The notes beneath the pieces are model-generated. The model was given only the letters and a program-made list of their open reading frames with translations. It was not told where the DNA came from and did no database searches. A stretch of DNA of 64,000 nt from Gloeobacter morelensis MG652769. Lineage in GTDB: Bacteria; Cyanobacteriota; Cyanobacteriia; Gloeobacterales; Gloeobacteraceae. Position numbers and translations under genes: made by a program. The stretch lies in NCBI RefSeq assembly GCF_021018745.1, contig NZ_CP063845.1:3038001-3102000 (forward strand), written 5' to 3'. Below are positions 45,950 to 62,392 of the stretch, one piece after another. Position 1 is the stretch's first letter. The number at the start of each line of letters is the position of its first letter.

Positions 45950-45990
45950 GCCCGCCGCCACCAATACCGGTCGCGGCGGGCTACTATTTT
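45950..45990 (+). terminator. Hairpin between rbcS and raf1
   Basis: A perfect 9-base stem GCCCGCCGC/GCGGCGGGC with a 14-base loop is followed by TACTATTTT. It could terminate most rbcLXS transcripts, giving less raf1 message, or protect the 3' end of the processed rbc mRNA. Confidence 0.65.
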
Positions 45991-46011
45991 GTCTGCTACC
46001 GTGTTTTGGCC

Positions 46012-47079
46012 ATGAGCGAATTTTCACAATCCGAACCGACCGGTGCCCCGATCGACATCGCCGCAGCCCTTGAACAACTGCGGCGCAAGGAGGGCGACTG
46101 GGTGGAGTGGGGGCAGATCCTCCAGCAACTGCACGCGGTCAACCAAGATCCGCAAAGCATCTTCGAAGCCACCGGCTTCGAACCGAGCCGCCAGAACCTT
46201 TTTGTCGTGGGTGCCCAGGTCTGGGCGGGCCTGGAGAGCGTCGGGACTGCCCGGGAGGTGCTTTCCCACTTTCGCCGCGAAGGCAGCAACGTGCTCTACG
46301 AGTTGCGCGTGCTGGGCCGCCAGGAGCGCCAGGCGGCGGCGGAACTGGCCCTGGCGCGCAAGCTCGACCCGGACGGAGCGCGGGAGGTGGCCAAGGCGAT
46401 CAAAGACCTCGCCCACACCGGCCCCCTGCCCGAGGGGTTTACCCGTCACCCCGGCGACGCAGTGGCCTGCCGCTGCTGGCAACTCGCCCGCCAGACCACC
46501 GACCTGCGCGAGCGCACGCAACTGATCGCCAAGGGCCTTGCCTTCGCCCACAGCGAAACCGCCCGCGTGCAGCTTGAGAAATTGCTGGTCGACTTTACCG
46601 CTCCCAAAGTTCCGCCTGCTCCCCGTTTGCCCTTTTACCGACTCGAAGACAGCGAGGAGTTGCCGCGCGTCTTACCGATGGCAAGCGGGCTACCCCTGGG
46701 GGAAACCGATTTCAAAGCCCTGCCCTGGCCTGAAGAGGTGGGACCCTTTCGCGCGGTGGCGGGCGAGGGCGGCTGGGTAGCTATGCCCGGCTATCAGATC
46801 ATCCGCAGCGCCGAGGCACCGATCGCGATTGCCACCACCACCGACCAACTGCCCGGGGGTGACACCCCCGAGCCGGTACTGGTGGTGGTTGACCGCGAAG
46901 CGCGCGCGTGGCGCGACGACAGCTACTTCTTGGTGACGGGCGAACCGGGCCAACTGCAGCTGGCCTGGTTCGCCGAGGCACCCGAGGTCCCGCTGTTCGG
47001 TCAGGTGATCGTCGTGCTCAGGCCCAAGCGCATCCTGGATGAAGAATTTACCAAAGATCCGTGGCAGCTGGACGAGTAA
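46012..47079 (+). CDS. raf1: Rubisco accumulation factor Raf1
   Basis: The 355-residue protein matches Raf1 (Acclimation factor): an N-terminal helical domain (ALEQLRRKEGDWVEWGQILQ, then HFRREGSNVLYELRVLGRQE) and a C-terminal beta-rich dimerisation domain (PFYRLEDSEELPRVLPMASG, GYQIIRSAEAPIAIATTTDQ). Raf1 dimers clamp Rubisco large-subunit dimers during assembly. In many cyanobacteria raf1 lies far from rbcL; here it directly follows rbcS, after a hairpin. ATG at 46012 is the natural start. Confidence 0.93.
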   Translation: MSEFSQSEPTGAPIDIAAALEQLRRKEGDWVEWGQILQQLHAVNQDPQSIFEATGFEPSRQNLFVVGAQVWAGLESVGTAREVLSHFRREGSNVLYELRVLGRQERQAAAELALARKLDPDGAREVAKAIKDLAHTGPLPEGFTRHPGDAVACRCWQLARQTTDLRERTQLIAKGLAFAHSETARVQLEKLLVDFTAPKVPPAPRLPFYRLEDSEELPRVLPMASGLPLGETDFKALPWPEEVGPFRAVAGEGGWVAMPGYQIIRSAEAPIAIATTTDQLPGGDTPEPVLVVVDREARAWRDDSYFLVTGEPGQLQLAWFAEAPEVPLFGQVIVVLRPKRILDEEFTKDPWQLDE

Positions 47080-47192: not shown

Positions 47193-49544
47193 TCACAGAT
47201 CGGCTTTGAGGTCTTCTTTGCGCCCGATATCTTGTTTGTCTAAAATAGGCAAACCAAGTACTCTCTTCAGCCCGAACCACCTGATCCGCAGCTTCCAAAA
47301 CTTGCTGCTTTCCATACCGGAAATCACAGCTTTCAAGCCATCCACATAGACCCAGGATTGGTCGAGCTGGCGCCGCAGCCGCCCGGTCTCCTCTTCGGCC
47401 TGGGCCAACTGATGGCGTAGTTGCAGCAACTCTCGCTGGCGCAGTTGCTGCACTTGCTGCAACTCTTGCTGGATTTGTGCCGACTGTTGCTGCAACTCTT
47501 GCTGGATTTGTGCCGACTGTTGACCGGTCAAGGTATGCTGTCGCGTGCAGCCGACGGAGTTCAGCACATGCCTTCTAGCCCACCAAGGCAGGCTCTCAAG
47601 GAGCGGCTTGATACCGGCCATATAGTTTCTAAAACCATTGGTGGTTCGGCTGAAACCTCCCTCTCGATGTCTGTAAAGAAACAAAAAATCCGGTATCGTA
47701 TCCAATGTGTAACCTTCGACCACAAGTTTTGCGAGCAATTCCCAGTCTTCGTGGTTAACGTCCCGACTTTCTCTAAAACCCCCCAGAGCGAGAAAGGTCG
47801 ATTTTTTAATGATGAAATTGGTATCACCAAAATAGTTTTCATATAAACTCGCTTCCGCACAAGCACCGATCGGATAGTACGCAAACTTATACTCTTTCAA
47901 GAAGGGGCTCTGAAATTCACCAAAACCTCGAGAGTAGCAAGTCAAGCAATCTGCCCTGGATTTCTCCATAGCCCAAACCATGCGCTCCAGCATGGCAGTT
48001 TCAGCTGCGTTGTCCGCATCCATAAAGACGATGTATTGGCCCGTAGACTGAGCCACTGCACAATTTCTGGCACTGCCCGGACCACCGTTCTCCTTGGTCA
48101 AAAAAAGCCAGCGCCGATCACGGTACTGATCCTGCATTTGTGAAAAGGTGCGCAGCGAGGAAGCATCTGTAGAACCGTCGTCCACGACGATCACTTCAAA
48201 ATTCCTGTAGGTTTGACGCTCGATCGACTCAAGTAGGTCGGGCAAGTACTCACCACAGTTGTAATAAGGAACGCAGATGGATACCTTAGGCTCCAATTGC
48301 CCAGGCTCACCTGCCGGCGCAACCAGATTCTTTTTGTGAACTGTCAACTGTTCGCAAAACTGCTGCCAAACAGTTCTTGCCCTTCGCGACGAATAAGCTT
48401 TGTTCAGGGGAGGAAGACCCTGTAACAGGCACTCGCGAAGCTTGGCTGCAAAGGCTTTTGGATTGGGAGAAAACAGGCGGGAGGAATCTGCGAACATCTC
48501 CGGTATTCCTCCGGTGTTCGCAGCAATAATATTGATATTGAGCTCGATAGACTCAATGACGGCAAAGGGCAGGTTGTCCGAGAGCGAGGGCGTGACCACC
48601 AGGGCGTTGGCATGCCTGCAGAGAAAGTTCAGGGCCTCCGGCTGGGAATAGTCGGTCAAGATGTCGAATTCGTAGACATCAAGGCACTCGGCCAAAAACT
48701 GGGGAATTGCTACTCTCGCCTCACCAAGGTGCGTTAGACCGTTTTTGCCCAGGAAAGTCAATCTAATGTGTTTACTTGCCGTTCTCAACTCAGGAGCGAG
48801 CAGTTGTAAAGCCCTGAGGTAGACCTCCAGCCCTTTGCGAGTCTCAAGCCGACCAAAAAAGACAATGTGCTGTCCATCGAATTCGGCCTCGATCGGATCT
48901 AATTCGGTCTCAAACAGGTAGGGCAAAATTTTTCTATTATGATTGATTTTCCAGCCATGTTCCTCGGCCCATTCAAACATATAATTGCTTGGGCTAATGG
49001 CGTGATCCGCGAATTCGAGACAGTACCTTTCTGCATAGTCAATGAGCAGCTCGTCCGTTGATTGTTTTGGAAGTTGTTGCATACCTTCCCGGATCCACTC
49101 CGAAGAACTGTGGGTCATACAGACGAGGGTAGTCCTCTCGAAAGCTTGGCCGGTTCGCTTCGCTTGAATAGAGGCGAAGCCATTGGCATGCCAGTCCTGA
49201 AAATAGCAGACATCAAAATGTTGCTCACTCAGCCATCTGTAAATACGTTGAGAACGTTCCACAAACCACTGATTTGCTCCACAGGTGGGACCGTTGAACA
49301 GGCAGGCGAGATCCGTACTCCAAACAAAATCGATTCCAAAGTTGGACTGATAGTAATCCCGCCAAGACGCCGATGTTCCAGTCTCAAAAATTGAGGTAAA
49401 TAGAATTGTTACGTCCTGTTTCATCTCCAAAGCCAAAAACTTCGCCAGATAAAAACAGTGGGTGCCTATGCCGCCGTTTTTGATGGGGCCGATGATATCG
49501 GGTGTCACTATGCAGGACTTTAGAATTTCCAGATTCATACCCAT
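47193..49544 (-). CDS. Bifunctional glycosyltransferase (GT4 + GT2) with C-terminal SSKFWKLR tag
   Basis: The 783-residue protein carries two glycosyltransferases. Residues ~10-390 are GT-B, GT4-like (IKNGGIGTHCFYLAKFLALE; the donor site SLSDNLPFAVIESIE). Residues ~415-650 are GT2 (VSICVPYYNCGEYLPDLLES, VVDDGSTD, DXD in FMDADNA). A glutamine-rich coiled coil follows, including an 11-residue repeat QQSAQIQQELQ, then the basic helix MESSKFWKLRIRW at 744-756. It should add two sugars in surface polysaccharide synthesis on the cytoplasmic side. ATG at 49544 has AAGGGG upstream. It is the last gene of a three-gene minus-strand operon. Confidence 0.93.
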   Translation of the reverse strand: MGMNLEILKSCIVTPDIIGPIKNGGIGTHCFYLAKFLALEMKQDVTILFTSIFETGTSASWRDYYQSNFGIDFVWSTDLACLFNGPTCGANQWFVERSQRIYRWLSEQHFDVCYFQDWHANGFASIQAKRTGQAFERTTLVCMTHSSSEWIREGMQQLPKQSTDELLIDYAERYCLEFADHAISPSNYMFEWAEEHGWKINHNRKILPYLFETELDPIEAEFDGQHIVFFGRLETRKGLEVYLRALQLLAPELRTASKHIRLTFLGKNGLTHLGEARVAIPQFLAECLDVYEFDILTDYSQPEALNFLCRHANALVVTPSLSDNLPFAVIESIELNINIIAANTGGIPEMFADSSRLFSPNPKAFAAKLRECLLQGLPPLNKAYSSRRARTVWQQFCEQLTVHKKNLVAPAGEPGQLEPKVSICVPYYNCGEYLPDLLESIERQTYRNFEVIVVDDGSTDASSLRTFSQMQDQYRDRRWLFLTKENGGPGSARNCAVAQSTGQYIVFMDADNAAETAMLERMVWAMEKSRADCLTCYSRGFGEFQSPFLKEYKFAYYPIGACAEASLYENYFGDTNFIIKKSTFLALGGFRESRDVNHEDWELLAKLVVEGYTLDTIPDFLFLYRHREGGFSRTTNGFRNYMAGIKPLLESLPWWARRHVLNSVGCTRQHTLTGQQSAQIQQELQQQSAQIQQELQQVQQLRQRELLQLRHQLAQAEEETGRLRRQLDQSWVYVDGLKAVISGMESSKFWKLRIRWFGLKRVLGLPILDKQDIGRKEDLKADL
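47455..47520 (-). repeat. 33-bp tandem repeat in the coiled coil
   Basis: Two near-identical 33-base units encode the doubled QQSAQIQQELQ in the coiled coil of the bifunctional glycosyltransferase. Confidence 0.8.
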
Positions 49545-49579
49545 TATCCCCTTAGCTAGTCACGCAAAAATTTAGCCGA

Positions 49580-50269
49580 CTACGATGAACGTTCCAATAG
49601 CAGTGTGAAGGCATTGTTGCCCCATGTATGGGCCGACTCTTGCACCCTCAATCCAACGGATTCGCACATTGCAGACAAGGCCTGAGCCGTAGGAAGCCAC
49701 CACCAAGGGCCAAAATCATCCGGACGGTAATCCACCCTATCGGTGAGGCCAAAAGCACGGACCTCGAAGCCAGTCCAGTACTGTTTCAAAATTTCAAATT
49801 CTCTGTGATCTAGGGCAGGCACGAAGATAACGCCGGAGGGCGGTATGACATAACGTCCCTTCTCATTTTCGATTACACTTTGGGTAATCGCTGAAGTCAG
49901 TACTAAATATTTGCGGGTTATGTTGCGCAGTGAAATTAAAACCTGAAGTGGATTAATGTGATGGTACAGCACGCCCGCGCAGTGAATAGCATCGAACAGT
50001 ATATCGGGATGGGAATATTGTAGCTTGCACACGTCCTCGACAATGCATTGATAATCCGTAATCCCAAAGCCGACCATGCGCTCACGAAATTTATCCCAGA
50101 GTTCGGAACCCTCCGATGTAATGTCAATCATGGTCAAAGATGTTGCCCCATACCGATGGGCTACCGATACTTTCTCATTGACAGTGCCCCATAATCCGCC
50201 AACTTCAGCAAAAGTCATTCCACTGACAACGCGAGAGATGTACTCGTCCCGAACGTCCACGTAACTCAT
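49580..50269 (-). CDS. SAM-dependent methyltransferase
   Basis: The 229-residue protein has a class I methyltransferase fold: the SAM-binding strand AEVGGLWGTVNEK, the acidic end of strand 2 in TSLTMIDITSEG, and FDAIHCAGVLYHHINPLQVL, typical of DUF1698/CmoB-like and sugar-modifying methyltransferases. It probably methylates a sugar or lipid-linked intermediate of the cluster. It lies 6 bases after the upstream methyltransferase and 35 bases before the glycosyltransferase. It lacks the C-terminal tag found in both neighbours. Confidence 0.85.
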   Translation of the reverse strand: MSYVDVRDEYISRVVSGMTFAEVGGLWGTVNEKVSVAHRYGATSLTMIDITSEGSELWDKFRERMVGFGITDYQCIVEDVCKLQYSHPDILFDAIHCAGVLYHHINPLQVLISLRNITRKYLVLTSAITQSVIENEKGRYVIPPSGVIFVPALDHREFEILKQYWTGFEVRAFGLTDRVDYRPDDFGPWWWLPTAQALSAMCESVGLRVQESAHTWGNNAFTLLLERSS

Positions 50270-50275
50270 TGCCCA

Positions 50276-51682
50276 CTAACCTCTTCTGGCCAAAACTTTT
50301 TTCGTTCTCGACCTGACCGTTCGCAATTTCCAAAGTCTGCTATTTTCCATATTCCGGATAGTCCTCAGTTCGCATTCGAGTTGTTCTTGCAGAGCCGTCT
50401 TCAGTTTATCCAAATGGTCTCGATCCGATTGAAGAACTTCCACGCACTTCCGAGTTTGTTCCAATTGATCGTTTAAGTAATCCTTGCCCTGTAGCAACTG
50501 GCCGTTCCAGGCTTCCAACTCGCTGCAGCGGGCTTCAAGATAATCCTTGCCCTGCTGCAACTGGCCATTCCAGGCTTCCAACTCGCTGCAGCGGGCTTCA
50601 AGATAATCCTTGCCCTGCTGCAACTGGCCGTTCCAGGCTTCCAACTCGCTGCAGCGGGCTTCAAGATAATCCTTGCCCTGCTGCAACTGGCCGTTCCAGG
50701 CTTCCAACTCGTCGTAGCGGCCCTGCTGAAAAATTCTGTCCTTCTGCAGTTGCTCGATTTGACTTTGAAGTTGTTGATTCTGTGCATTTGTCTGCAGCAC
50801 CTGGGCCTGGGTTTGCTGGAGCTTGCTCTGCAACCATTCCCTGGCCTCCTGGGCAGATGCCAATAAGTTTTGAAGCCGTTCCGGTCGCGCGTGAATTTGG
50901 CTGTGCAACGTTTCCACTTCTTGAATGTAACCGTTTTGCAGGCTGCCAATGGCATAGCTCCGCAAGTAACTGGGAAGCTGCCAAAGCACATCCGGATCGG
51001 GTCTGTGGTGTACGGGTTCGATGTCTCCCCGCCATGCCACTCCCATAATCTGCATCGTTTGGTAGATCATGGTTTTCCAGCCCTTCTGCCTCAGGTAGTG
51101 CAGCCCCTCCGCCACATCGGGAGCCGCTAGATCATGAAACAGAATAAGTGCGTCACTCTCTGCATACTGCTCGCACACAACGGCGTCCCCGAGCGGGCCA
51201 GGGGCATCGTGGTTGCCGTCTATAAAGATAAGCGACCACTTGCGTGCGCCCCCGGCAACCAGTTCCTCGACTTTGTCAGGACTGCAACCTTCGACAAGAC
51301 GCGTCGCATCCAGAACGCCGGCCATCGCCAGCGAATCGCTGACGCTTGTGTAAAATTCTGCCCTCCCCAACAGCGGGTCGATGATGTCCAATTCGACCTT
51401 GGCCAAAGCCATGTGACACGCAGACCAGCCCATCCAGCAACCAATCTCCAGAGCTTTCTTGCCGGAAAATTTAAGCGCGGTATTGTAAAGGATGTGAACT
51501 TCGTCCCTGTTGAGAAAACCAACATGCGGGTAACGCCGGTCCACGTACCAATTGTGAGGAATTTCACGACGCAAATAGGGCCAGGGGCAGGTGACGGGAT
51601 CCCCAACCACCATATTGGGAAAGCAGTGGTCGACTCGAACAGATTGAAGCCCGGGACATATATAGTCTTTTTTTAGAGCCAT
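50276..51682 (-). CDS. Methyltransferase with tandem 21-residue repeats and C-terminal tag
   Basis: Residues ~70-230 of this 468-residue protein are a class I methyltransferase of the Methyltransf_24 type (ALEIGCWMGWSACHMALAKV, LIFIDGNHDAPGPLGDAVVC, ILFHDLAAPDVAEGLHYLR). From ~255 on comes a long coiled coil containing four copies of a 21-residue unit (ELEAWNGQLQQGKDYLEAR plus CS). The last 24 residues, beginning MENSRLWKLRTVRS, are a divergent version of the tag seen in neighbouring glycosyltransferases. It is the first gene of the minus-strand operon and may methylate a glycan. Confidence 0.88.
   Translation of the reverse strand: MALKKDYICPGLQSVRVDHCFPNMVVGDPVTCPWPYLRREIPHNWYVDRRYPHVGFLNRDEVHILYNTALKFSGKKALEIGCWMGWSACHMALAKVELDIIDPLLGRAEFYTSVSDSLAMAGVLDATRLVEGCSPDKVEELVAGGARKWSLIFIDGNHDAPGPLGDAVVCEQYAESDALILFHDLAAPDVAEGLHYLRQKGWKTMIYQTMQIMGVAWRGDIEPVHHRPDPDVLWQLPSYLRSYAIGSLQNGYIQEVETLHSQIHARPERLQNLLASAQEAREWLQSKLQQTQAQVLQTNAQNQQLQSQIEQLQKDRIFQQGRYDELEAWNGQLQQGKDYLEARCSELEAWNGQLQQGKDYLEARCSELEAWNGQLQQGKDYLEARCSELEAWNGQLLQGKDYLNDQLEQTRKCVEVLQSDRDHLDKLKTALQEQLECELRTIRNMENSRLWKLRTVRSRTKKVLARRG
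50482..50724 (-). repeat. 63-bp tandem repeats in the methyltransferase coiled coil
   Basis: About four nearly identical 63-base units (unit boundaries near 50515, 50578, 50641 and 50704) encode the 21-residue coiled-coil repeat. Differences between units are only a few bases, which suggests recent expansion. Confidence 0.92.
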
Positions 51683-52709
51683 GTCGGTTGAACTCTCCGT
51701 TCGCTATCTTCGGTGCCGTTTATAGATTGTGTGTTCCCACAGCAGCTCGAAGGTCAGCAGAAGGTCACAGGGGATTATCAGTGTTCCTCAGAGAATATGT
51801 CAATAGCAAAATTGGGAGGGGAACGCCCCGTTGTTGTCCTGTGTCGACGCGATTGGTCCGAGTCGATCGCATCTGAGCAAAGAACACACAGCGCCCGCCA
51901 CCGATGAATTTTGAGACTTGCGTTTCTCAGTCACGGCGCTCCGGGGGCAATTTCTTGCGATACCGTAGGCAAACGAAGTCAGCAATCCTGAAATTTAACC
52001 GTCGAGCGGGCTGCAGCCCAAGGCTTACAGCCAGATGAGCGCGACACTCCAATTTCTCCGCAGGCAAAAGCCGCCAGCCCCAAGTCCTCGAACTTCTTTG
52101 AGAGGGTGTTCCCCGGGGGGTAGGAGGACCGTGTCGCAAGTGAGGCCAAGCTGATGGTGCAGTTGGGTGTCTACTGCGTGGGAGCCGGCCAGGCTCTCGC
52201 CAAAGCCGGGGACCGCCTCGGCAGGCCATCCGCCCGTCGCATTGCGCACCGAAAAACGGCGACAGGTTCTGCGCAGCCGGTGGATCGGCGTAGGGGCGCA
52301 ACGGTCGCAGAAAAATCAGTTCGTTGACCACCGGCTGCGCCCCGGGACGAGCCTCTACACCCTCCTACGGGCAGGCTCGCCCTTCGGTTTCAGCAGCAGG
52401 GTTTTGGCGTGTGCAAATCAATTCCCCGTGCATCGGGTTTGCCGTGCCTGGGCAATCTCCTGGCGTCGCTGCCGAAATCCGGCCGGCAGCCAAGCGCCGG
52501 AAGGGCACAATGCCTGGATCCTTGCTCCTGTTCTGAGAGGCTGCTGGACATCGCTTTGTTGGGTGCGGCCGGAGCGCATCCTGACTTGTCACGCTCGTAG
52601 AGTCAAGCCGTTTTTACTTTCCGGATCTCCAAAACAACTTGACGCTGCAGTCTGCTGGGACTAACCTATGCAATAATGACCTCCTGTTCAAGATTGACTG
52701 TACATAAAT
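51683..52709. other. Divergent intergenic region of the polysaccharide cluster
   Basis: About 1 kb between the minus- and plus-strand glycosyltransferase operons. Short frames on both strands (for example 52025-52249 minus) have no recognisable motif. It probably contains the two divergent promoters; a TTGACG near 52640 upstream of the gene at 52710 is a candidate -35 box. The rest may be decayed coding sequence. Confidence 0.4.
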
Positions 52710-55121
52710 ATGACCGATGGTATAGAGCTTAAAGTGCATGGCTTATCAGGCGATTTGCACCGCCTACCAGGCGAGAACTTCTCCGTCCATTTTCGGCACG
52801 ATATCGTCCAACTATTGGGTGATCCCCAGACTTCAAAAGTGGCAGTGCTCGTCACCAGTGAGTACGAAGGCATTTATAAAAATGGCGGCATCGGTACATA
52901 CTATAGATCCCTAAGTGAGATGCTTGCCGCCGAAGGCTGGTACGTCATCTTGGTACTGTGCTTTACCCAGGAACACTTTGCCGGCACATCGGATCTTGCT
53001 GTTGTCAAGCATGTTTTTTCCGCCAACGCCCTTGATCAGGTTCTCCACCTTCAACCTATGCACCGCGAGGTTCTCCATGACCTGCGCTACAACGAAACGG
53101 ATCAGCAGGGTTTTGGCTGTTTGTTGCTGCTACAGGCTCTCATCGCCCACTTCCAGGGCGCTGTGGTTTACGTCGAATTTCCGGAGATGCTGGGCTTTGG
53201 TTTCTATACGGTTCAAGCCAAGCGGGCAGGTTTGCTCGGACCCAAGTGCATTGTTGCCATCACACTCCACAGCGGCTGTGAATGGTTGTACGAAGCTCAG
53301 GACAAGTATCTCGAAGAAAATATCGACTGGTTCTGGTCCGTCTGCCACCGAGAACAGACCTCCTTCGAGCAGGCCGACCTCGCCTTTTTTCCATCACAGT
53401 CGCTGAAAATGAAATTGGAAAGCTACAGCTGGCATACGGGTCACGCTGTGCACATGCCAAACTTTGTCCCAGTGGTGCACTCGCCGGTTCGGCAGGCAAG
53501 CTGCGAATCGGAGATTCCCGGAGGAAAAGTACCTTTAGTCTTTTTCGGTCGATTGGAGGACCGCAAAGGCTTGTTTGTCTTTGTCCAGGCAATCAAGCTC
53601 CTACCCACTGTTTTGAGGGATATCCTCCACATTTTGTTCGTTGGCAAAGTTGTGCAATTGCAATCCTCCCAGTTTAGCCATCTCGACAGCCGCCAGTACA
53701 TAGAGCAGCAACTGTCAGGCGTGGCTTCCTTTGAGATTTACACGGATCTCTACAGTCGAGAGGCCATCCAGTTTGTCGATTCCCTGCCGGAACCGCTCGT
53801 CTGCTTAGCAAGCCCCCAGGAAAATTTTCCCAACAGCAGCCTGGAGATGGGGCAGTTGCCTATCCGATTGGTCATCTCCGATACGGGCGGTTTTCGGGAG
53901 ACTTTGCAACTGATTGGCCGTTCGGCATCTGTCTACTGGTTCAAACCGAAAAACCCCCAATCACTGTGCCGAACACTCGTGCAGGCCCTGACCGATGCGC
54001 CGCAAACTATCGAATCTGCCGACGCAGCGCGTCTAAAGCAAATCAATCGTGAGTTGCTCGAGCGCAAGATCGGGTGTATCGACCGGGCGTTGCGGGCAGC
54101 CGAACCCTCGATTGACGATGGACAGCCTATCGTCACCATCGCCGTCGTTCCTCAACAATCCGGTGTCTATCTGTTGGATTGCCTTGCCAGCATCGAGGCC
54201 CAGACCTATTCCAACAGGCAGGTTGTCGTGCTTTGCACTACCCAGGCCGCACAACCGCTGCTGCAACTTTTGGAGCAGGCTGGAAGCTTATATCCCAACT
54301 GCAAATTTGCCCACCTCGACTGCGACGATGCCATTTTGGAGGTCTGCAAATCGCTGCTGAAGGCCGAACGGAACGGTTATTTCCTCGCCCTCGATGCGGA
54401 CGACATTCTCAAGCCCTTCGCCATCGAGAACCTGATTCTAGCTGCGAAGCGGGTGGATGCCGCAGTGGTCGCAACCCCAGTCCCCCAGGGCAGCCACACC
54501 ACCAGTGCCAGTTTTGCCGGTGGTTCGTTGCCGGGTATTCTCAACATGCCAGCCTCCGGCCCCGGCCGGTGTCTGGCTTCCGTCCAGTTTCTCAAACGCC
54601 TTGGTCAGACCCGGGGCACGGACATCCGGGCCTGCAGCCGGGAGCTTATCGCTGCAGCCGCAGCCACAGGCGAAGTGAGCCTCTACTTTCCCTTTGCCCT
54701 GTGCGAACGCAAGCAGCCGCCAGTGCCGCCGCCGCAGTGGTACTTGTCGGGGCAGGCGCAATTTCAGCTGGAGCAATTGCTCGCGCAGGTGCCTGCCTCC
54801 GCCTGGCCCAAGCGCCAAATTCATCTGCTGGTCTCCGCCGTGCGCCAGCTGCTGCAGCTTTCAGCCAGCTTGCGCTTGCAGCTGCAGCAGGCAAAGGAGC
54901 AGGCGCAGCTGCAGAGTGAACAATTCCAATCAAAAGTTCAACAAGCGAGTGTTCTTGCCCAGCCGGCACCCCTGCCGCCCCCGCCCGACAACACCCTTCA
55001 CCTGGCCAAGATCGAACAGCTGGAGATCGAGATTGCCGCTATGCGAAGCAGCAAGTTCTGGAAGCTGCGCTCCCGGTGGTTCAAATTGAAAAAGCACCTG
55101 GGACTGGCCACAGGCGAATAG
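52710..55121 (+). CDS. Glycosyltransferase (GT4 plus GT2-like) with C-terminal SSKFWKLR tag
   Basis: The 803-residue protein has a GT-B domain at ~45-450 (VTSEYEGIYKNGGIGTYYRS at the acceptor side, ENFPNSSLEMGQLPIRLVIS with the donor-site glutamates) and a GT2-like domain at ~470-650 (IVTIAVVPQQSGVYLLDCLA, ALDADD). Then comes a glutamine/leucine-rich coiled coil with a proline break and the tag MRSSKFWKLRSRWFKLKKHL at 778-797. It is paralogous to the protein at 56083, with which it shares the unusual EGIYKNGG block. It is the first gene of the plus-strand operon and likely acts at the cytoplasmic membrane. Confidence 0.9.
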   Translation: MTDGIELKVHGLSGDLHRLPGENFSVHFRHDIVQLLGDPQTSKVAVLVTSEYEGIYKNGGIGTYYRSLSEMLAAEGWYVILVLCFTQEHFAGTSDLAVVKHVFSANALDQVLHLQPMHREVLHDLRYNETDQQGFGCLLLLQALIAHFQGAVVYVEFPEMLGFGFYTVQAKRAGLLGPKCIVAITLHSGCEWLYEAQDKYLEENIDWFWSVCHREQTSFEQADLAFFPSQSLKMKLESYSWHTGHAVHMPNFVPVVHSPVRQASCESEIPGGKVPLVFFGRLEDRKGLFVFVQAIKLLPTVLRDILHILFVGKVVQLQSSQFSHLDSRQYIEQQLSGVASFEIYTDLYSREAIQFVDSLPEPLVCLASPQENFPNSSLEMGQLPIRLVISDTGGFRETLQLIGRSASVYWFKPKNPQSLCRTLVQALTDAPQTIESADAARLKQINRELLERKIGCIDRALRAAEPSIDDGQPIVTIAVVPQQSGVYLLDCLASIEAQTYSNRQVVVLCTTQAAQPLLQLLEQAGSLYPNCKFAHLDCDDAILEVCKSLLKAERNGYFLALDADDILKPFAIENLILAAKRVDAAVVATPVPQGSHTTSASFAGGSLPGILNMPASGPGRCLASVQFLKRLGQTRGTDIRACSRELIAAAAATGEVSLYFPFALCERKQPPVPPPQWYLSGQAQFQLEQLLAQVPASAWPKRQIHLLVSAVRQLLQLSASLRLQLQQAKEQAQLQSEQFQSKVQQASVLAQPAPLPPPPDNTLHLAKIEQLEIEIAAMRSSKFWKLRSRWFKLKKHLGLATGE

Positions 55122-55243
55122 GACCCGGCCCACCGCGGCCCGCGCGCCAGGCGATACCGAGATTGAATTGGCTTTTGCACAACTTTGATCAAGGTCTTAT
55201 AATGCTTACGCCCCCGTAAACCACACAGACAAGCCTGAAATGT

Positions 55244-56083
55244 ATGGCCGATAGCGACTATCCGATCATCTGGCCTGCGATCGAAGAGGAAATTGCCCCA
55301 TTCTTGAAGTATTGCCGAGGAATCGTGCTCAATGCCGGCTCCGGCTGGCGGGCGGTCCAGTTGGGCCAGAAGCATCTCAGCATCGATATTGTTCCTGACA
55401 GCCGTCCAAATGTGATAGCCGATCTGCACGGTCTACCCCTGCGCAACGATTGTGTCGATACGGTGGTGAGCATCGCTGTGCTGGAGCACACCCGCTTTCC
55501 CTGGGTGGTGGCACAGGAGTTTTACCGGGTCCTGCGCCCGGGCGGGATGGGAGTGATTGCCGTCCCTTTTTTGCAACCTCAGCACAGTTCTCCGCACGAC
55601 TACGTCCGCTTTACAGAAAGCGGATTGGTGGAATTGATGAGGTACGCCGGGTTCGAAGTGGTTGAGACCGCTCATGTCCACCATTTTGGCCAGACGATTG
55701 CCTGGCTTTTGTGGGAGTATCTGGAAGCCAACCGGCCCCACGGCTTCCTGCGTCCCCTATGGCTGCGGTTCATCCGCGCGCTCTCCCAGGGCAAGTTGCT
55801 CAGGGGTAACAGCCCCAATACCCACAACACCCACTACGCAGTTGTCGTGAAGCCGGGGGGAGCAAGTGCACCGCCAAGCTGCTATCGACAGGCCATCGAA
55901 AGTACCGCAGGGGATTGGTTCTATCCCCTGCTGGCCTGTCCGCGGAGCCACCAGCCGCTTCTTCGCGATGGCCAAGCGCTCGTCTCGGCAGATCGCCAGT
56001 GGCTTTACCCCTTTCAAGAGGGCCGCCCCCAAGTGCTCCACGCTGTGGAGGCGGCTTCTACAATCTGTCAGGAAAGATATTGA
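55244..56083 (+). CDS. SAM-dependent methyltransferase with Trm112-like C-terminal domain
   Basis: The 279-residue protein begins with a class I methyltransferase: IVLNAGSGWRAVQLG at the SAM site, VSIAVLEHTRFPWVVAQEFY and LRPGGMGVIAVPF. The last ~60 residues (YPLLACPRSHQPLLRDGQAL, then WLYPFQEGRPQVL) resemble a Trm112/DUF951-like zinc-ribbon module, but only one of the usual cysteines remains, so zinc binding is doubtful. It sits between two paralogous glycosyltransferase genes and its stop overlaps the next start by one base (TGATG). It probably methylates a sugar of the same polymer. Confidence 0.85.
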   Translation: MADSDYPIIWPAIEEEIAPFLKYCRGIVLNAGSGWRAVQLGQKHLSIDIVPDSRPNVIADLHGLPLRNDCVDTVVSIAVLEHTRFPWVVAQEFYRVLRPGGMGVIAVPFLQPQHSSPHDYVRFTESGLVELMRYAGFEVVETAHVHHFGQTIAWLLWEYLEANRPHGFLRPLWLRFIRALSQGKLLRGNSPNTHNTHYAVVVKPGGASAPPSCYRQAIESTAGDWFYPLLACPRSHQPLLRDGQALVSADRQWLYPFQEGRPQVLHAVEAASTICQERY

Positions 56084-58434
56084 TGAATACAAGTGGATGG
56101 CAGGCCGGCGCGGGCTGCAGCGAATGGACCCCGACCCTCCAGGCGTCCTGGGACGAGGCCAGCAACGGCAGCAGGCCGGAGAAGATCGCCATACTCGCCA
56201 CCAGCGAGTACGAAGGCATCTATAAAAATGGCGGCGTCGGAACGTATTACAAAACCTTGAGCGAACAGCTGGCCGCTCAGGGCTGGCATGTCGTTCTGCT
56301 GCTTTGCGGGGTCTCGCAGACGTTTGGCGGCGGGTCTACTCTGCCTGCAGTCCGGCGCATCTACTCGACCCGGGAGGCAGAGCAGGTGCTGGTTCTCCAG
56401 CCGGTGCACGAAGCGCTCCTGGCGGCTTTCAAACCAGATGTCGTGCGCGAGGAGAGCTTTCGCTGCCTGCTGTTTGTCCAGGCAATTGCCCATTGCTTTG
56501 CGGACGCGCCGATCTTTGTCGAGTTCCCGGAGATGATGGCCCTCGGGTTTGACACCATCCAGGCAAAGCGGGCGCGGTTGCTGCCCAAGACCTGCACAGT
56601 GGCCGTTACCCTGCATGGTGGACACGAATGGGTCTGCGAAGCGAACGAGCGCTTCGACGATCAGAACCTGGATTATTTCTGGCAGGTGAGTGCCTGCCAG
56701 CAGTACACGTTCGAGAATGCGGACCTGCCCTACTTTCCTTCGTACTACCTGCGCGACCGGGTCGCCAGTTACGGTTGGCGAACGGAGCGCGGCATTCATC
56801 TGCCCTACTGTGCTCCCATCGTTCATTTGAGTGGCCCACCCGTGTCGGCCGGGAAGCCCATGGGGGTCGGCCGCAGACCGCTGGTCTTTTTTGGGCGGCT
56901 CGAAGAGCGAAAAGGGCTCTGTACGTTCATCGAGGCGCTCAAAATGCTCGACGAGCAAATCCGGCAGCAACTGCACGTTTTATTTGTCGGCAAATCGGTC
57001 TTTTTGAACTCCCCGGAGCTGGCCAACCGCACAAGCGATGAGTACATCGAGGAGCAACTTGCCGGTGTTGTGAGCTTTTCCATCCACTCCGATTTTTTCA
57101 GTAACCAGGCCATCCGCTTCATCCACGCGCTGGAGCACCCGCTCATCGTTCTGGCAAGCCACCAAGAAAACTTTCCCAACACGGCTTTGGAGATGGGCCA
57201 GTTGCCTGTGCAACTCATCGTCTCCGACACCGGCGGCTTCCGAGAAACCCTGGGGCTTTTAGGGCGCTCGCAAGGAGTGCACTGGTTTTCACCCAAAGAC
57301 TCGCGCTCGCTGGCTCGAGCCGCCAAACTGGCGCTGGCCGAAACGGCACCGGTGCAGGACATCCCGGGTGCGGCCAGATTGCAGCAACTCAACGAGAGCC
57401 TGACACAGCAGAAATTGCAACATATTGCGCAGGTTAGTGCGCGGCCTGCCACCCCGCTGCAGGCTCACGACGCTACACTCAGTGCCCTCGTCCTCTGCCG
57501 GGAGGGCAGCTCGGAACTGCTCGCCTGCCTCCGGAGCCTGGAGATCCAGACCCAAAAGCTACAGGCGGTAGCCGTTCTGCTTGCTGGTCCAGTGGACAAA
57601 GATCTTCAAGCGCAGCTTGACACCCTGCCCCGAGACAAGTACACCTTCTTGCACTCGCCGGTGATGACAGCAACCGGGACACAGTGCCGCGACTGGTTCA
57701 CGCGCACCGGCAGCACCCATCTGCTGGTGATCGCAGCTTCAGACCAGCTGTTGCCTGGCGCGCTCGAGGTGCTGCTGAGCGCGGCTGTCTCCGCTCAGGC
57801 GGTCTTCAGCCCGGCGCTCGCTTGCGCGGGCGCCGGGCGCGCCGTCAATGTGATTCCTGTTTCTCTCAACGGTCTGCTGCGGGCGGTGGAGCTGGCCTAT
57901 CCCTGCGGCCTCTACGAGCGCCGTCTGGTCGAATCGCTCGCGCCGCTGGTGGCAGAAGGCCCCGCCGCCGGTCTGGAATGGCTGGCAGGAGCCGTTGCCG
58001 GTGGCGCGCCGATCGCCCATTATCCCTACCCGCTCTACACCTGCGGCCGGGCACCCACAGCGCAGCCGGGGGCGGTTCTTTCGGTGAGGGAGCAGTTTTT
58101 TCTGCGCACCTGCCTGGCCCGTCTGCCTGTTCAAAAATGGTCGCCCCGCGAATTCTTTTTGTTATTGACGGCTTGGCAGCAGTTGGTGACTTCTCAAAAA
58201 TCGGCGGCAGAGCAGCTGCAAAGTAATTATCGCGAGCTGGAGAGAGCCTGGAAGTACGTGCACAGCTTGCAGGAATTCTATGCCGACCTGAAGCAGCAGG
58301 CCCTGGCCGAACGCGAAGGATTGCAGACAGAAATTGCCGCCATGGAAAGCAGCAAATTCTGGAAGCTGCGTGGGCAGTGGTTGCGGCTCAAGAAACTTTT
58401 GAAACCGACATGGCAAACACCCCCCCGCCGATAA
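56083..58434 (+). CDS. Glycosyltransferase (GT4 plus degenerate GT2-like) with C-terminal SSKFWKLR tag
   Basis: The 783-residue protein is a paralogue of the one at 52710: ILATSEYEGIYKNGGVGTYY near the start, RRPLVFFGRLEERKGL, and ENFPNTALEMGQLPVQLIVS at the donor site. The second domain (~460-660) looks like GT2 (TLSALVLCREGSSELLACLR) but the acidic DXD is replaced (VIAASDQLLPG), so it may not be catalytic. A coiled coil leads to MESSKFWKLRGQWLRLKKLL at 754-773. ATG at 56083 is coupled to the methyltransferase stop. The upstream part of the open frame is a shadow. Confidence 0.9.
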   Translation: MNTSGWQAGAGCSEWTPTLQASWDEASNGSRPEKIAILATSEYEGIYKNGGVGTYYKTLSEQLAAQGWHVVLLLCGVSQTFGGGSTLPAVRRIYSTREAEQVLVLQPVHEALLAAFKPDVVREESFRCLLFVQAIAHCFADAPIFVEFPEMMALGFDTIQAKRARLLPKTCTVAVTLHGGHEWVCEANERFDDQNLDYFWQVSACQQYTFENADLPYFPSYYLRDRVASYGWRTERGIHLPYCAPIVHLSGPPVSAGKPMGVGRRPLVFFGRLEERKGLCTFIEALKMLDEQIRQQLHVLFVGKSVFLNSPELANRTSDEYIEEQLAGVVSFSIHSDFFSNQAIRFIHALEHPLIVLASHQENFPNTALEMGQLPVQLIVSDTGGFRETLGLLGRSQGVHWFSPKDSRSLARAAKLALAETAPVQDIPGAARLQQLNESLTQQKLQHIAQVSARPATPLQAHDATLSALVLCREGSSELLACLRSLEIQTQKLQAVAVLLAGPVDKDLQAQLDTLPRDKYTFLHSPVMTATGTQCRDWFTRTGSTHLLVIAASDQLLPGALEVLLSAAVSAQAVFSPALACAGAGRAVNVIPVSLNGLLRAVELAYPCGLYERRLVESLAPLVAEGPAAGLEWLAGAVAGGAPIAHYPYPLYTCGRAPTAQPGAVLSVREQFFLRTCLARLPVQKWSPREFFLLLTAWQQLVTSQKSAAEQLQSNYRELERAWKYVHSLQEFYADLKQQALAEREGLQTEIAAMESSKFWKLRGQWLRLKKLLKPTWQTPPRR

Positions 58435-60143
58435 TCTCGCGCGATACCCTGCGCGTCGCGTCGCTGAGCACCTGGGATCTCCAGGGAGGAGCCGCCCGGG
58501 CTGCCTACCGGTTGCATCGGGGATTGCGGCAGCTGGGCCAGGATGCGACGCTCCATGTCCACGTTCGGCACTCCGACGACCCGAGCACGCGGGCTGTCGT
58601 GCCGCTGGAAGCTTCTGAGCAACTGGAGACGCTCGACAATTTGGCCCGGGTGCAGGCGTACTACGTCGATCACAACCGGACGGACCTGTCCAATACGATC
58701 TTCACGCTGCCCTACCCTGGCGTCGATCTCAGCAGCGCGGCCGCCATTACCTGCGCGGATATTTTGCACCTGCACTGGGTGGCTCGCTGGCAGTCGCCCG
58801 TAACCCTCAGGAAGCTTGTCGAAGCACACCGCAAGCCGGTATTCTGGACCCTCCACGACATGTGGGCTTTCACCGGCGGCTGTCATTTCTCGGCAGGCTG
58901 CGAGGGCTACCGCGAGCATTGCCGCAATTGCCCGCAACTGCGCGACGATCCTTACCAGTTGCCGGCCATGCTGCTGCAGGACAAAATCGACTTTCTAGAC
59001 GGTAAAAATTTTGTCGTGGTTGCCCCCAGCCGGTGGCTGGCCGATTGCGCAAGAGCAAGTACATTTTTTGCCCACAGCCGTATCGAGGTCATCCCCTATG
59101 CCCTCGATACGGCTATCTTCGCTCCCGTCGCCAAGGCGGAGGCGAAAGTCGCCCTCGGCCTGGAGGCACACTCTCAAGTGATTCTCTTTGGCGCCCACAA
59201 CTGCACCGAGCGCCGCAAGGGCTTCTCCGAGATGATCGCAGCTTTGCGTCTACTTTTGAAGCAGCCGCAATTCCACGAACGCATCGAAAACCAGACCCTT
59301 CGGCTTTTGTGTTTTGGTTACATCGGCTCTTTGGATCTGACGGATCTGCCGGTGGTGCACCTGGGCGAAATCCGCTCCGACGAGGAACTGCGGCGCATTT
59401 ATTCTGCGGCCGACTTGTTTTGTTTGCCGTCGCTGGAGGATAACCTGCCAAACACGCTGCTAGAAGCGATGGCCTGCGCCACGGCCGTCATTGCCTTTGC
59501 GGCGGGCGGCACCCTCGATGTGCTGCAAGATCGCGTGCACGGTCGGTTGGTGCCGGTAGGCGATGTGCAGGCCCTGGCTAGAACCCTCGCCGAGGGCCTG
59601 CAAGATCCCCAACTGGCCGAGTACGGCCGGCAGGGCCGCCGACTGATCGAGGCCCACTACGCGGGGACGACGGAGGCGGCCCGGTATCTTGAGCTGTATC
59701 GCGACGTGCTCTTAGATCAGCCGCGATCGGTTCTACAGACTACTCCAGCTGCGCGGGATGCAGCAATCCAGGCGGCAGTGGAGACCACCAGCGGCCCGCC
59801 TTTTGCCGCGATGGCCACACAGGTACAGTCCGCCTGCCTGAAGCTGGAGGTGCAGGATCTGCGCTCGCAGCTCGAGAAGACCCGGCAGCAACTGCGTGAG
59901 ACCTGGCAGGAACTGGAGGCGACCCGGAAGGATTACTGGGATTCGCAAGGTCTGCTGTGGCAGACGCGAGGAGAGCTCGACCGGAGCCACTATGCCCGGC
60001 AGGCGCTGCAACAACAAATCGCAGGCATGGAGAGCAGTAAATTCTGGCAGCTGCGCAACTCCTGGTTCGAGCTGAAAAATAAGCTGGGGATGGAGGACAC
60101 CGACCGGCCTCCAGGCATGGAGGAGCAAAACAAAGAACCGTGA
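58410..60143 (+). CDS. Glycosyltransferase family 4 with coiled coil and C-terminal SSKFWQLR tag
   Basis: The 577-residue protein is a GT4 enzyme of the WcaC-like kind: STWDLQGGAARAAYRLHRGL, HLHWVARW, PVFWTLHDMWAFTGGCHFSA, CRNCPQL, and donor site SLEDNLPNTLLEAMACAT. After ~455 a coiled coil (LRSQLEKTRQQLRETWQELE) leads to the tag MESSKFWQLRNSWFELKNKL at 540-559. It starts at the ATG 58410, 25 bases inside the previous gene, so expression is tightly coupled. It probably adds one sugar to the repeat unit. Confidence 0.92.
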   Translation: MANTPPPIISRDTLRVASLSTWDLQGGAARAAYRLHRGLRQLGQDATLHVHVRHSDDPSTRAVVPLEASEQLETLDNLARVQAYYVDHNRTDLSNTIFTLPYPGVDLSSAAAITCADILHLHWVARWQSPVTLRKLVEAHRKPVFWTLHDMWAFTGGCHFSAGCEGYREHCRNCPQLRDDPYQLPAMLLQDKIDFLDGKNFVVVAPSRWLADCARASTFFAHSRIEVIPYALDTAIFAPVAKAEAKVALGLEAHSQVILFGAHNCTERRKGFSEMIAALRLLLKQPQFHERIENQTLRLLCFGYIGSLDLTDLPVVHLGEIRSDEELRRIYSAADLFCLPSLEDNLPNTLLEAMACATAVIAFAAGGTLDVLQDRVHGRLVPVGDVQALARTLAEGLQDPQLAEYGRQGRRLIEAHYAGTTEAARYLELYRDVLLDQPRSVLQTTPAARDAAIQAAVETTSGPPFAAMATQVQSACLKLEVQDLRSQLEKTRQQLRETWQELEATRKDYWDSQGLLWQTRGELDRSHYARQALQQQIAGMESSKFWQLRNSWFELKNKLGMEDTDRPPGMEEQNKEP

Positions 60144-60254: not shown

Positions 60255-61502
60255 ATGCTGGATGAGCGACTCGTCAAGATTATCGAAGACAACGCCGAGG
60301 CGCGCCTGAAGCTCACCTCGCTGCTCGAACGGGTCACCGCCGAGCCGCCCAAGGCGCACGGCAGCGCCATGGATGTAATCATCACCCCCAACGAGGTGAA
60401 CGGCCGCCACGGCACCGGGGTGCTCATCGACCGGCTGTTCGGCCATTGCCCGGATGTCCTTTCGATCCGTTCGCGCAATATCTATGGCGGCGAACAACGC
60501 TTTGGGGCGGTGGATCTGTGCCTTTCCCACCCGGAAGGGACGCGCCTGCAGGCGTTTTACAATGTCATGCGCGCCCTGGCGGGTATCGAACCGCGGCGCA
60601 TCCTGTGCGTTCCTTATTATGTCGAAGACGTGATGACGGCCCTCGCGATCAAAGAACTGTTTGACGTGCCGCTCGCGGTCTGGGTGATGGACGACCAGAA
60701 CATCTCTGTGCAGACGATCCCGGATGGACTGATGGGAGAGCTGTTGCGCAAGTCCGGTCTGCGGCTGGCCATCTCGCCCGAACTGCAGCGGGCTTACCAG
60801 GCCAAATACGACCTGCCCATGCACTTTGTGCCCCCCGTCGTCCCCGACGCTCTGCTGTCGCGCGAGGCGCGGCTACCCGCGCCGGATAGCGCCGAGGCCC
60901 GCACTGGGGCAATCATCGGCAACATCTGGAGCGATCGCTGGCTTTCGATGCTGCGCCAGACGGTGCGCAGCACCGGCATCCAAGTCCACTGGTATTGGAC
61001 GGGCGGCTCCTGGCTCGATCGGGAGCAGACCGACCGCGCCACCCTCGAGCTCGACGGCATCTTGCTCAAACCGCCCATCCCGACCGAAGCAGCCCTGGTG
61101 GCCGATCTGCGCGGCCGGATGTTTACGGTGGTCCCCTCCGGGACGCTCGATGCGTTCGACGACAACCCGGCCATCTCCCGGTTGAGCCTTCCCAGCCGCA
61201 TCGTGTTCATTCTGGCCACGACCAACACCCCGATTATCGTGCTGGGAAGCCCCGAGACTGCCGCCGCCCGCTTTGTTACCCAGTGCGGGATCGGGGCTGT
61301 GAGCGCCTACGAACCGGCGAGTTTTCGCCGGGCGGTCGAGTGGGTCACAGAGCCCGCCACCCAGCGCACCCTGCGCGAGAACGCCGCGAGGCTTGCCCCC
61401 GCCTTTGCCGTCCGGGGCACCGACGGGTGGATCTGGGGGTCGCTCGCCGCCGGCCGCCCCAGCGATGATCGCTTCGCCCGTTTGGGTACGGCGGGCGGGT
61501 GA
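60255..61502 (+). CDS. Glycosyltransferase-like protein (GT-B)
   Basis: The 415-residue protein opens with a short helix (RLVKIIEDNAEARLKLTSLL) followed by a GT-B-like body: DVIITPNEVNGRHGTGVLID, ILCVPYYVEDVMTALAIKEL, AVWVMDDQNIS, and a C-terminal half with MFTVVPSGTLDAFDDNPAIS and IIVLGSPETAAARFV. The two Rossmann-like halves and context support a glycosyltransferase, but the family's double-glutamate motif is not obvious. It has no C-terminal tag. It lies 111 bases after the previous gene and ends just before the gene at 61544. Confidence 0.65.
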   Translation: MLDERLVKIIEDNAEARLKLTSLLERVTAEPPKAHGSAMDVIITPNEVNGRHGTGVLIDRLFGHCPDVLSIRSRNIYGGEQRFGAVDLCLSHPEGTRLQAFYNVMRALAGIEPRRILCVPYYVEDVMTALAIKELFDVPLAVWVMDDQNISVQTIPDGLMGELLRKSGLRLAISPELQRAYQAKYDLPMHFVPPVVPDALLSREARLPAPDSAEARTGAIIGNIWSDRWLSMLRQTVRSTGIQVHWYWTGGSWLDREQTDRATLELDGILLKPPIPTEAALVADLRGRMFTVVPSGTLDAFDDNPAISRLSLPSRIVFILATTNTPIIVLGSPETAAARFVTQCGIGAVSAYEPASFRRAVEWVTEPATQRTLRENAARLAPAFAVRGTDGWIWGSLAAGRPSDDRFARLGTAGG

Positions 61503-61543
61503 TGGACAGATTGTCCGGGCCAGGTGTGAAACAGGAGCGCGGG

Positions 61544-62392
61544 ATGGTTTCGTTTCTGGGCAGAATCAAAACGGTCAAAGATCTGTTCTTAGACAAGCTC
61601 GACAGCATCCTCGAACGGGTCGAGGCCATCGAAGCCGCCGCGAATACGACGCTCAAGAGCGTGACGACTTCGCTGGAGGCAAGTACCTATCTAGTCGACA
61701 GCCAGAGCCGCGAGAGTCTCGATCAGGAGATGTTCCTGCAAAAAATTTCGGCCTTCCAGGCTTTTCAGGCCGAGGCGCAGCAAAAGCAAGCCGAGCGTCT
61801 GGCCGCCTCGCTGGAGAAACTGGCTGCGGGCCAGAACCAACTGCCGGGAGCGCCGGCCGAGCGGGTGAAACCGGGGGACACCCCCATCGTCGTTCGCGTG
61901 GCGGATGCACCCCGGCCGGTGCTGGCGCTTATTGCCCATCTGTACAGTTTTTTGCCTGCGCGCACGGCGGCGGTCGCCGCCAAAACCGACGACGATGCGG
62001 CGGCATTTTTGCAGGAGGCGGGTTTCGCCCTCGAGGTTCTCACCGCACCGCCGCAGGCGGCGACCGCCGTGGGTCTGGTGCGGGTGGCCCCGGAGGCGAT
62101 GCTACAGGATTTTGGCGAACTGGGTTGTGCTGTGGTGGCCTGTGAGTACGGCGACAAACCAGTTTTGGATCGGGAATTGGGCGAGCAGGTGGCCCAGATG
62201 CGCAGGCGGGGTTACCACTGGCACATCGTGCTGTATTCCACCGGCACCGACGGCGAAACTTCTTTTTATTGCAACCGGCACCTGGCGATCGAAAAGGCGC
62301 GCGGAGCGGTGCTGTTCTTTCGGGAGCACCCGCTGTTCGCGCAAGCTCACGATTGGTGTCGGGCGGTACTGCCTGCCACTTACTTGCGCTGA
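61544..62392 (+). CDS. Coiled-coil protein of unknown function at the end of the polysaccharide operon
   Basis: The 282-residue protein has a long N-terminal coiled coil (LFLDKLDSILERVEAIEAAA, then FLQKISAFQAFQAEAQQKQA; about 1-110) and a C-terminal alpha/beta domain of ~150 residues (VALVRVAPEAM-like strands, GYHWHIVLYSTGTDGETSFY). I do not recognise the C-terminal domain. ATG at 61544 is chosen for its AGGAG nine bases upstream; the frame is open to a GTG at 61499 that overlaps the preceding stop. As the last gene of the operon it may serve as a partner or scaffold for the coiled-coil glycosyltransferases. Confidence 0.6.
   Translation: MVSFLGRIKTVKDLFLDKLDSILERVEAIEAAANTTLKSVTTSLEASTYLVDSQSRESLDQEMFLQKISAFQAFQAEAQQKQAERLAASLEKLAAGQNQLPGAPAERVKPGDTPIVVRVADAPRPVLALIAHLYSFLPARTAAVAAKTDDDAAAFLQEAGFALEVLTAPPQAATAVGLVRVAPEAMLQDFGELGCAVVACEYGDKPVLDRELGEQVAQMRRRGYHWHIVLYSTGTDGETSFYCNRHLAIEKARGAVLFFREHPLFAQAHDWCRAVLPATYLR

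Follow-up and report, generated by a model that had tools for sequence, protein, structure and literature searches.

A short basic tail carried by glycan enzymes with varied catalytic domains is a module found across the phylum Cyanobacteria. We consider it moderately likely that this tag works like a junction in the chain terminator WbdD, as a spacer-plus-docking module that would gather cytoplasmic glycan enzymes at the membrane.

Tagged enzymes of the Gloeobacter morelensis cluster

All five genes to which the first-pass annotation had assigned a common C-terminal element (47193, 50276, 52710, 56080 and 58410) carry it in frame in the window, i.e. the whole 64,000-nucleotide stretch of the G. 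morelensis genome analyzed here; one gene start, given there as 56083, is corrected to 56080 or upstream. A profile of 109 tags, all from other genomes and with window sequences excluded, recovered the five in a six-frame search of the 64 kb. The four glycosyltransferase (GT) tags had E-values from 3.8e-15 to 4.2e-13 (Table 1), and the tag of methyltransferase 50276 reached 1e-3, the next-best match in the 64 kb being at 2.3. The whole genome contains only these five tags.

The tagged enzymes had been described as five different enzymes with unrelated catalytic domains. The domains are indeed varied, but because 52710 and 56080 are paralogs (E = 1.6e-164) and 47193 shares their GT4-GT2 layout (E = 2e-35), the tag hosts fall into three families rather than five, namely GT4-GT2, a second kind of GT4 and Methyltransf_24. 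Identical tag residues are encoded by the same codon in only about half of cases or fewer, and the window copies thus appear to be old rather than products of recent DNA copying. A coiled coil was said to precede each tag. Heptad patterns were present upstream of the tag in four of the five proteins, but in 52710 a proline run breaks this region and no heptad signal was seen, although the tag is intact. Protein 50276, with its Methyltransf_24 domain, is the only tagged window protein to have the N-terminal methyltransferase or methyltransferase-kinase unit of WbdD-type chain terminators, the other four being GTs. A 172-residue proline-free stretch precedes its tag, and the motif at the coil end reads NSRLWKLR. 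This copy had been thought to lack the second half of the element; it retains I, M, S, W, L, R, K and L but has lost the second W.

Table 1. Genes and tag copies of the glycan cluster (window coordinates)
Feature	Coordinates	Strand	Basis
GT4-GT2 two-domain glycosyltransferase, tagged, 783 aa	47193..49544	-	Pfam Glycos_transf_1 + Glycos_transf_2
Tag of 47193, region VISGMESSKFWKLRIRWFGLKRVLGL	47253..47330	-	profile E 4.2e-13
Methyltransferase-like protein, untagged, 229 aa, tagged genes on both sides	49580..50269	-	weak Methyltransf_25/11 matches
Methyltransf_24 protein, tagged, long repetitive coiled coil, 468 aa	50276..51682	-	Pfam; heptad p 0.005
Degenerate tag of methyltransferase 50276, IRNMENSRLWKLRTVRSRTKKVL	50288..50365	-	profile E 1e-3
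GT4-GT2 glycosyltransferase, tagged, 803 aa, 56080 paralog	52710..55121	+	Pfam, sequence comparison
Tag of 52710, IEIAAMRSSKFWKLRSRWFKLKKHLG	55026..55103	+	profile E 6e-14
Methyltransferase, untagged, 279 aa, orthologs tagged elsewhere	55244..56083	+	ortholog comparison
GT4-family glycosyltransferase, tagged, 784 aa, 52710 paralog	56080..58434	+	Pfam, sequence comparison
Tag of 56080, TEIAAMESSKFWKLRGQWLRLKKLLK	58327..58404	+	profile E 2.4e-14
GT4 glycosyltransferase, tagged, 577 aa	58410..60143	+	Pfam, structure model
Tag of 58410, QQIAGMESSKFWQLRNSWFELKNKLG	60012..60089	+	profile E 3.8e-15, structure model
415 aa protein, family unassigned; homologs in a few other tagged loci, inside larger proteins	60255..61502	+	no Pfam match
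Coiled-coil protein, earlier candidate partner (then 61544)	61499..62392	+	locus comparison

Distribution, host enzymes and exporter neighborhood

The cyanobacterial profile search found the tag in 66 of 292 genomes, at the C-terminus of 89 of 113 proteins and internally in the other 24, usually between fused catalytic modules. Hosts are mostly methyltransferases, GT2 and GT4 enzymes and sulfotransferases rather than random cytoplasmic proteins, and no Pfam or NCBIfam model matches at the tag. The proposal that the element is a detachable module of glycan enzymes, and the outcome expected of such a search, were thus borne out. Orthologs of 55244 are tagged in three other genomes and the window copy is not, pointing to gain or loss, and the Microcystis ortholog is fused to a GT domain; orthologs of 58410 keep catalytic domain and tag with spacers of highly variable length.

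In genomes with multiple tags, 61 of 78 tags have another within 15 kb, and a cyanobacterial locus can hold up to five tagged enzymes, GTs included. Tags from one locus did not resemble each other significantly more than they resembled tags drawn from the whole phylum (p = 0.086). Co-adaptation within loci thus lacks significant support, and the tag probably has a target conserved throughout the phylum, not one specific to the window cluster. The coiled-coil protein 61544, suggested earlier as a common partner, was rejected as a general companion of the tag, since just 3 of about 190 other loci examined encode a relative of its N-terminal part. Beyond Cyanobacteria we searched with a DNA pattern, chance matches being mostly removed by reading frame; the matches listed are a lower bound, and the convincing ones among them come from one Acidobacteria and one Planctomycetota MAG, where misbinning is possible. 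The PDB held no relevant relative (the top sequence hit, covering 12 residues of gamma-tubulin ring proteins, had E = 1), and neither SSKFWKLR nor SWRLTAPL, a string of the second flavor described below, was found in the literature searched.

Tags adjoin O-antigen-type exporters. Wzt_C domains lie at most 6 kb from a tag in 30 of 81 cases against 0.28 expected, tag and Wzt_C co-occur across genomes, and a Wzm-like exporter permease is present in 37 of 76 tagged loci. The window cluster itself has no exporter nearby: none is encoded anywhere in the window, nor over the next 17 kb on its right side. Because its genome has no Wzt_C and its sole Wzm/Wzt pair lies about 0.5 Mb from the cluster, the exporter link fails here. 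This pair was located with the full-length Wzm protein; a 40-residue piece of Wzm as query found nothing in 25 genomes and was uninformative.

A second flavor in Pseudomonadota and WbdD

A second flavor, S-x-S-W-[RK]-[LIM]-T-x-P-L-R, occurs on the same kinds of enzymes in Pseudomonadota, with profile matches in 37 of 249 genomes of a proper sample and none in twelve arbitrary genomes. The two flavors align in register with moderate similarity (hhalign 72.7%, E = 3.2e-5 over 18 columns), although the cyanobacterial profile scores WbdD poorly (E = 0.088 and 0.61 when the search was confined to two WbdD proteins). In E. coli WbdD the second flavor directly follows the coiled coil, at residue 592 of 708, and it is present in both O8 and O9-type WbdD, where wzm, wzt and wbdA adjoin.

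WbdD is the chain terminator and molecular ruler of the E. coli and Klebsiella O8 and O9/O9a/O3 antigens. It forms a coiled-coil trimer (PMC3482155), and both membrane binding and recruitment of the polymerase WbdA have been assigned to its C-terminal region (PMC3447403, PMC3482155, PMC11231755). Like the tag hosts, it runs from catalytic domain through coiled-coil spacer to a motif, with Ser-x-[Ser/Phe]-Trp-[Arg/Lys]-[Leu/Ile/Met] at the coil end and a basic segment after it, and like many cyanobacterial tagged loci its loci are exporter-linked. The differences are that its motif reads SRSWRMTKG or SRSWRITQP, that about 110 residues follow it whereas the cyanobacterial tail is shorter, and that each locus has one motif-bearing protein rather than up to five. 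Moreover, the motif ends near residue 600 and a 1-600 construct is soluble (PMC3447403), so in WbdD the motif is not sufficient for membrane attachment.

Klebsiella WbbB (O12) and ORF6 (O7) combine a terminator, a coiled coil and the polymerase GTs within a single polypeptide, and ORF6 orthologs have been noted in cyanobacteria (PMC11231755). The 24 internally tagged proteins share this domain layout (methyltransferase or GT, coil, tag, GT modules).

Docking, anchoring and other readings

Since the tail resembles the WbdD junction with membrane and partner enzyme, it probably gathers enzymes into one membrane complex; the membrane or scaffold role proposed in the first-pass annotation is reinforced by this analogy in motif shape. 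In such a complex, a coiled-coil spacer, differing in length between enzymes, would extend from the catalytic domain (GT, methyltransferase or sulfotransferase) to a Ser-Ser break, and the short, strongly basic, Trp-containing helix beyond it (K-F-W-K-L-R-x-x-W-F-x-L-K) would attach the enzyme to a conserved site on the inner membrane face, whether lipid surface, exporter or other shared component. Tagged enzymes would thereby meet where the lipid-linked chain grows, spacer length would set the distance of each active site from the membrane, and chain length might be affected. In other cyanobacteria the meeting point may be an O-antigen-type ABC exporter, whose cap-reading Wzt_C would take up the chain. 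In a model of 58410, predicted as a monomer from seven sequences and with pLDDT of about 70 in the tag, the catalytic domain leads into a helix of 79 residues; this breaks at S542-S543, and a second, separate helix spans 544-558. We also entertain, tentatively, a more specific reading, in which a single conserved inner-membrane receptor (on an exporter, a lipid-carrier enzyme or another hub) would recognize S-K-F-W-K-L-R-x-x-W as an address on any bearer. Cyanobacteria might then build a glycan factory of several enzymes by reading their tails, and Pseudomonadota would do so with a tail of another spelling and a receptor to match.

The helix might instead be a plain surface anchor: basic and rich in Trp, it would bind acidic lipids, need no protein receptor and simply hold each enzyme close to the lipid-linked substrate. 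Its mean net charge of +5.3 (16 residues) and a pair of near-invariant Trp are consistent with this, as is the finding that tags are no more alike within loci than across the phylum, expected for a universal target like the membrane. Basic amphipathic helices are common in peripheral GTs; those of the GT-B enzymes PimA and LpxB, also basic and Trp-containing, are proposed to hold the GT at the membrane surface, but they belong to the GT fold, whereas the tag lies apart from the catalytic domain as a module of its own, on several unrelated folds (PMC6286764). However, in a non-redundant set single core residues (W 100%, R4 98%, W7 98%, F 96%, K-1 94%, S-2 93%) are conserved more strictly than lipid binding usually requires, and T-x-P in the same stretch of the Pseudomonadota flavor suits a simple helix poorly. 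Of the basic amphipathic helix described earlier, the strong charge stands, but the hydrophobic moment is only modestly above shuffles (0.40 vs 0.31). We regard a plain anchor as unlikely.

Less probable still is a capping role, in which the motif would terminate the coiled coil and set its strand number or register without binding any target beyond it. A heptad region does precede the tag in about two thirds of hosts, the long helix of the 58410 model stops at the serine pair and WbdD is a coiled-coil trimer (PMC3482155), but the tag persists in 52710 without heptads and elsewhere with very short spacers, and its conserved residues follow the break rather than lying within the coil. It is very doubtful that the tail has no common role and merely spread through glycan loci by duplication and recombination, to be retained by inertia. 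Such loci are prone to recombination, and three of the five hosts in the window are indeed related, but codons differ where residues are the same, and core conservation of 93-100% throughout the phylum, next to freely varying flanks, amounts to purifying selection. Finally, a C-terminal sorting or degradation signal for a dedicated processing enzyme would suit a short, mostly C-terminal tag but is highly improbable, given that internal copies usually have whole catalytic modules downstream and that the hosts are cytoplasmic enzymes with no hydrophobic membrane-spanning segment after the tag, unlike PEP-CTERM-like sorting tags, which are strictly C-terminal and have such a stretch.

To our knowledge, beyond a small number of O-antigens of E. 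coli and Klebsiella, little is known of how separate GTs and chain-ending enzymes meet at the membrane. A tail marking the enzymes of a pathway would make membership readable from sequence, and it could be reused in glycoengineering to bring enzymes together. In the poorly studied envelopes of cyanobacteria, it would pick out tagged methyltransferases and sulfotransferases beside Wzt_C exporters as candidate chain terminators and link them to WbdD.

Tagged enzymes of the glycan cluster

The tag, a short shared tail (I-x-x-M-x-S-S-K-F-W-K-L-R-x-x-W-x-x-L-K-x-x-L) mostly following a coiled-coil spacer, is present at all five positions reported by the first-pass annotation. With a profile built from 109 tags of other genomes and none from the window, a six-frame search of the 64 kb recovered all four glycosyltransferase (GT) tags with E values no higher than 4.2e-13 and, at E 1e-3, that of the methyltransferase, while no other match fell below E 2; the genome as a whole carries five and no more. 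The same annotation had described five different enzymes. The hosts are indeed varied, but they represent three families rather than five kinds. Because the tag copies differ in synonymous codons, the conserved entity is the protein and not a recent DNA copy.

Features of the window and of compared regions (L-numbers) outside it; window proteins are named by start position
Region	Position	Strand	Feature
Window	43741-47079		RuBisCO operon with large-subunit, rbcX-like and small-subunit genes, then a 357-residue protein, all immediately to the left of the glycan cluster; the protein is, presumably Raf1-like
Window	47193		Tagged GT, GT4-GT2 layout
Window	50276-51682	-	Tagged Methyltransf_24 protein
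Window	50473-50991	-	Coiled coil of 50276: about four near-identical 21-residue repeats (ELEAWNGQLQQGKDYLEARCS)
Window	52710		Tagged GT, GT4-GT2 layout, paralogue of 56080
Window	55244		Methyltransferase without tag, overlapping the start of 56080
Window	56080		Tagged GT, GT4-GT2 layout, paralogue of 52710
Window	58410		Tagged GT4, differing from the GT4-GT2 hosts
Window	60255-61502		Protein without Pfam match
Window	61499-62392		Coiled-coil protein
L281	9462-12326		Only Wzm/Wzt pair of the window genome, without Wzt_C; next gene product putatively LptF/LptG permease-like
L123	1943-4375		O9-type WbdD, plasmid form, 810 residues (longer than the chromosomal form by the length of two 51-residue coil repeats)
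L282	1501-3627		O9-type WbdD, chromosomal form, 708 residues
L038	7544-10672		1042-residue protein with two tandem C-terminal tags ~50 residues apart

The tag is modular. Orthologues of 55244 in three genomes (55-56% identical) bear the coil and tag that 55244 lacks, and in its Microcystis counterpart the same enzyme continues into a GT domain instead. Among 58410 orthologues both the tag and the catalytic domain are retained, separated by a spacer of highly variable length. Across genomes, tag identity is about equal on non-homologous (46.8%) and homologous enzymes (47.6%), which indicates that constraint acts on the tag in its own right. Tags of the same locus show no significant excess of similarity over tags at large (p 0.086), and these two results argue for a target that is conserved across the phylum.

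The protein at 61499-62392, listed as 61544 when it was proposed earlier as a partner of the tag, is not a general one, with relatives in three other loci and in its N-terminal part only. It recurs jointly with the adjacent 60255-61502 protein in two other regions (L066, L040). Elsewhere, homologues of the latter, probably an undescribed glycan enzyme family, sit inside proteins of up to 1597 residues.

Distribution and exporter neighbourhood

In an even sample of cyanobacteria the profile matched 66 of 292 genomes (44 of 116 genera), three of the 66 through short spurious frames only. An iterated profile run on 77 retrieved regions gave 113 tagged proteins across 76 of the loci, with the tag at most 20 residues from the C-terminus in 89 and internal in 24. 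Hosts are methyltransferases from several Pfam families, GT2 and GT4 enzymes and sulfotransferases, and a few carry other domains; one 1597-residue host (L047) combines sulfotransferase, radical-SAM and aminotransferase. Among the matches listed in a GTDB DNA pattern scan, almost all real tags were cyanobacterial, and the only match of the cyanobacterial profile in 249 Pseudomonadota genomes was spurious (a 37-residue frame). The exceptions in the GTDB scan, cyanobacterial-type tags in one Planctomycetota and one Acidobacteria MAG (L134, L184), may reflect horizontal transfer or misbinning.

Tags cluster with each other (47/82 close pairs versus about 0.5 expected). A Wzm-like permease lies within the few kb retrieved in 37 of 76 tagged cyanobacterial loci, a count that omits L111, where no tag passed. 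Wzt_C, the cap-reading domain of O-antigen-type ABC exporters, is present in 49/63 tagged versus 26/229 other genomes of the same 292; genome size confounds this co-occurrence but not the distance test, in which 30 of the 81 copies from tagged genomes have a tag no more than 6 kb away, versus 0.28 expected. The window genome is an exception to the exporter link: no Wzt_C was found in it, and its one Wzm/Wzt pair is 0.5 Mb from the cluster.

A second flavour and the end of WbdD

Many proteobacterial GTs end in S-x-S-W-R-L-T-x-P-L-R. Apart from a few hypothetical proteins, the annotated matches to such a peptide in a plasmid search were GTs, methyltransferases and sulfotransferases. The matches included the O8 locus of E. 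coli, with rfbK, wzm, wzt, methyltransferase and GT genes, and an O9-type locus carrying wzm, wzt, a methyltransferase-kinase gene and wbdA. WbdD, the chain terminator, is the protein matched at both loci; its 708-residue form from E. coli has SRSWRM beginning at residue 592, immediately past the coiled coil. With a cut-off of E 0.01, a profile of this flavour matched 37 of 249 Pseudomonadota genomes; the strongest matches lie in long frames, on hosts of the types GT2, GT4, methyltransferase, sulfotransferase, RgpF and WbsX. The two flavours align in register over 18 columns (profile-profile alignment, probability 72.7%, E 3.2e-5). The cyanobacterial profile scores WbdD directly only weakly, so that homology is likely but unproven.

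Docking or lipid anchoring

A significant heptad pattern lies directly upstream of the tag in about two thirds of hosts, 52710 being an exception. The predicted AlphaFold2 model of 58410 (pLDDT 72, seven sequences) places one helix at 463-541 and another at 544-558, on either side of a break at S542-S543; the second helix comprises exactly K-F-W-Q-L-R-N-S-W-F-E-L-K-N-K. The main alternative to docking is plain lipid anchoring. The 16-residue tag helix has a mean net charge of +5.3, and its hydrophobic moment of 0.40 compares with 0.31 in shuffles. Once redundancy is removed from the set, single residues of the core are nearly fixed (W 100%, R4 98%, W7 98%, F 96%, K-1 94%, S-2 93%), which favours a specific target, although it does not prove one. 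The WbdD C-terminus contains an amphipathic helix for membrane placement and a region recruiting the polymerase WbdA (PMC3447403, PMC3482155, PMC11231755), and the coil is a chain-length ruler (PMC5082667, PMC6286764). Since a WbdD construct of residues 1-600, motif included, is soluble (PMC3447403), the motif does not by itself anchor WbdD to the membrane. The coil of WbdD varies in 51-residue repeats, as in its 708- and 810-residue forms, so spacer length in both 50276 and WbdD may change by repeat number.

The tag is best read as a spacer-plus-docking module resembling the end of WbdD. The analysis establishes the module, the enzymes that bear it, its genomic surroundings and its likeness to WbdD, whereas we infer docking, the target and an effect on chain length. 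Both systems place a motif at the end of a coil spacer, but the tag occurs on several enzymes per locus at once, and these enzymes would use the module simultaneously.
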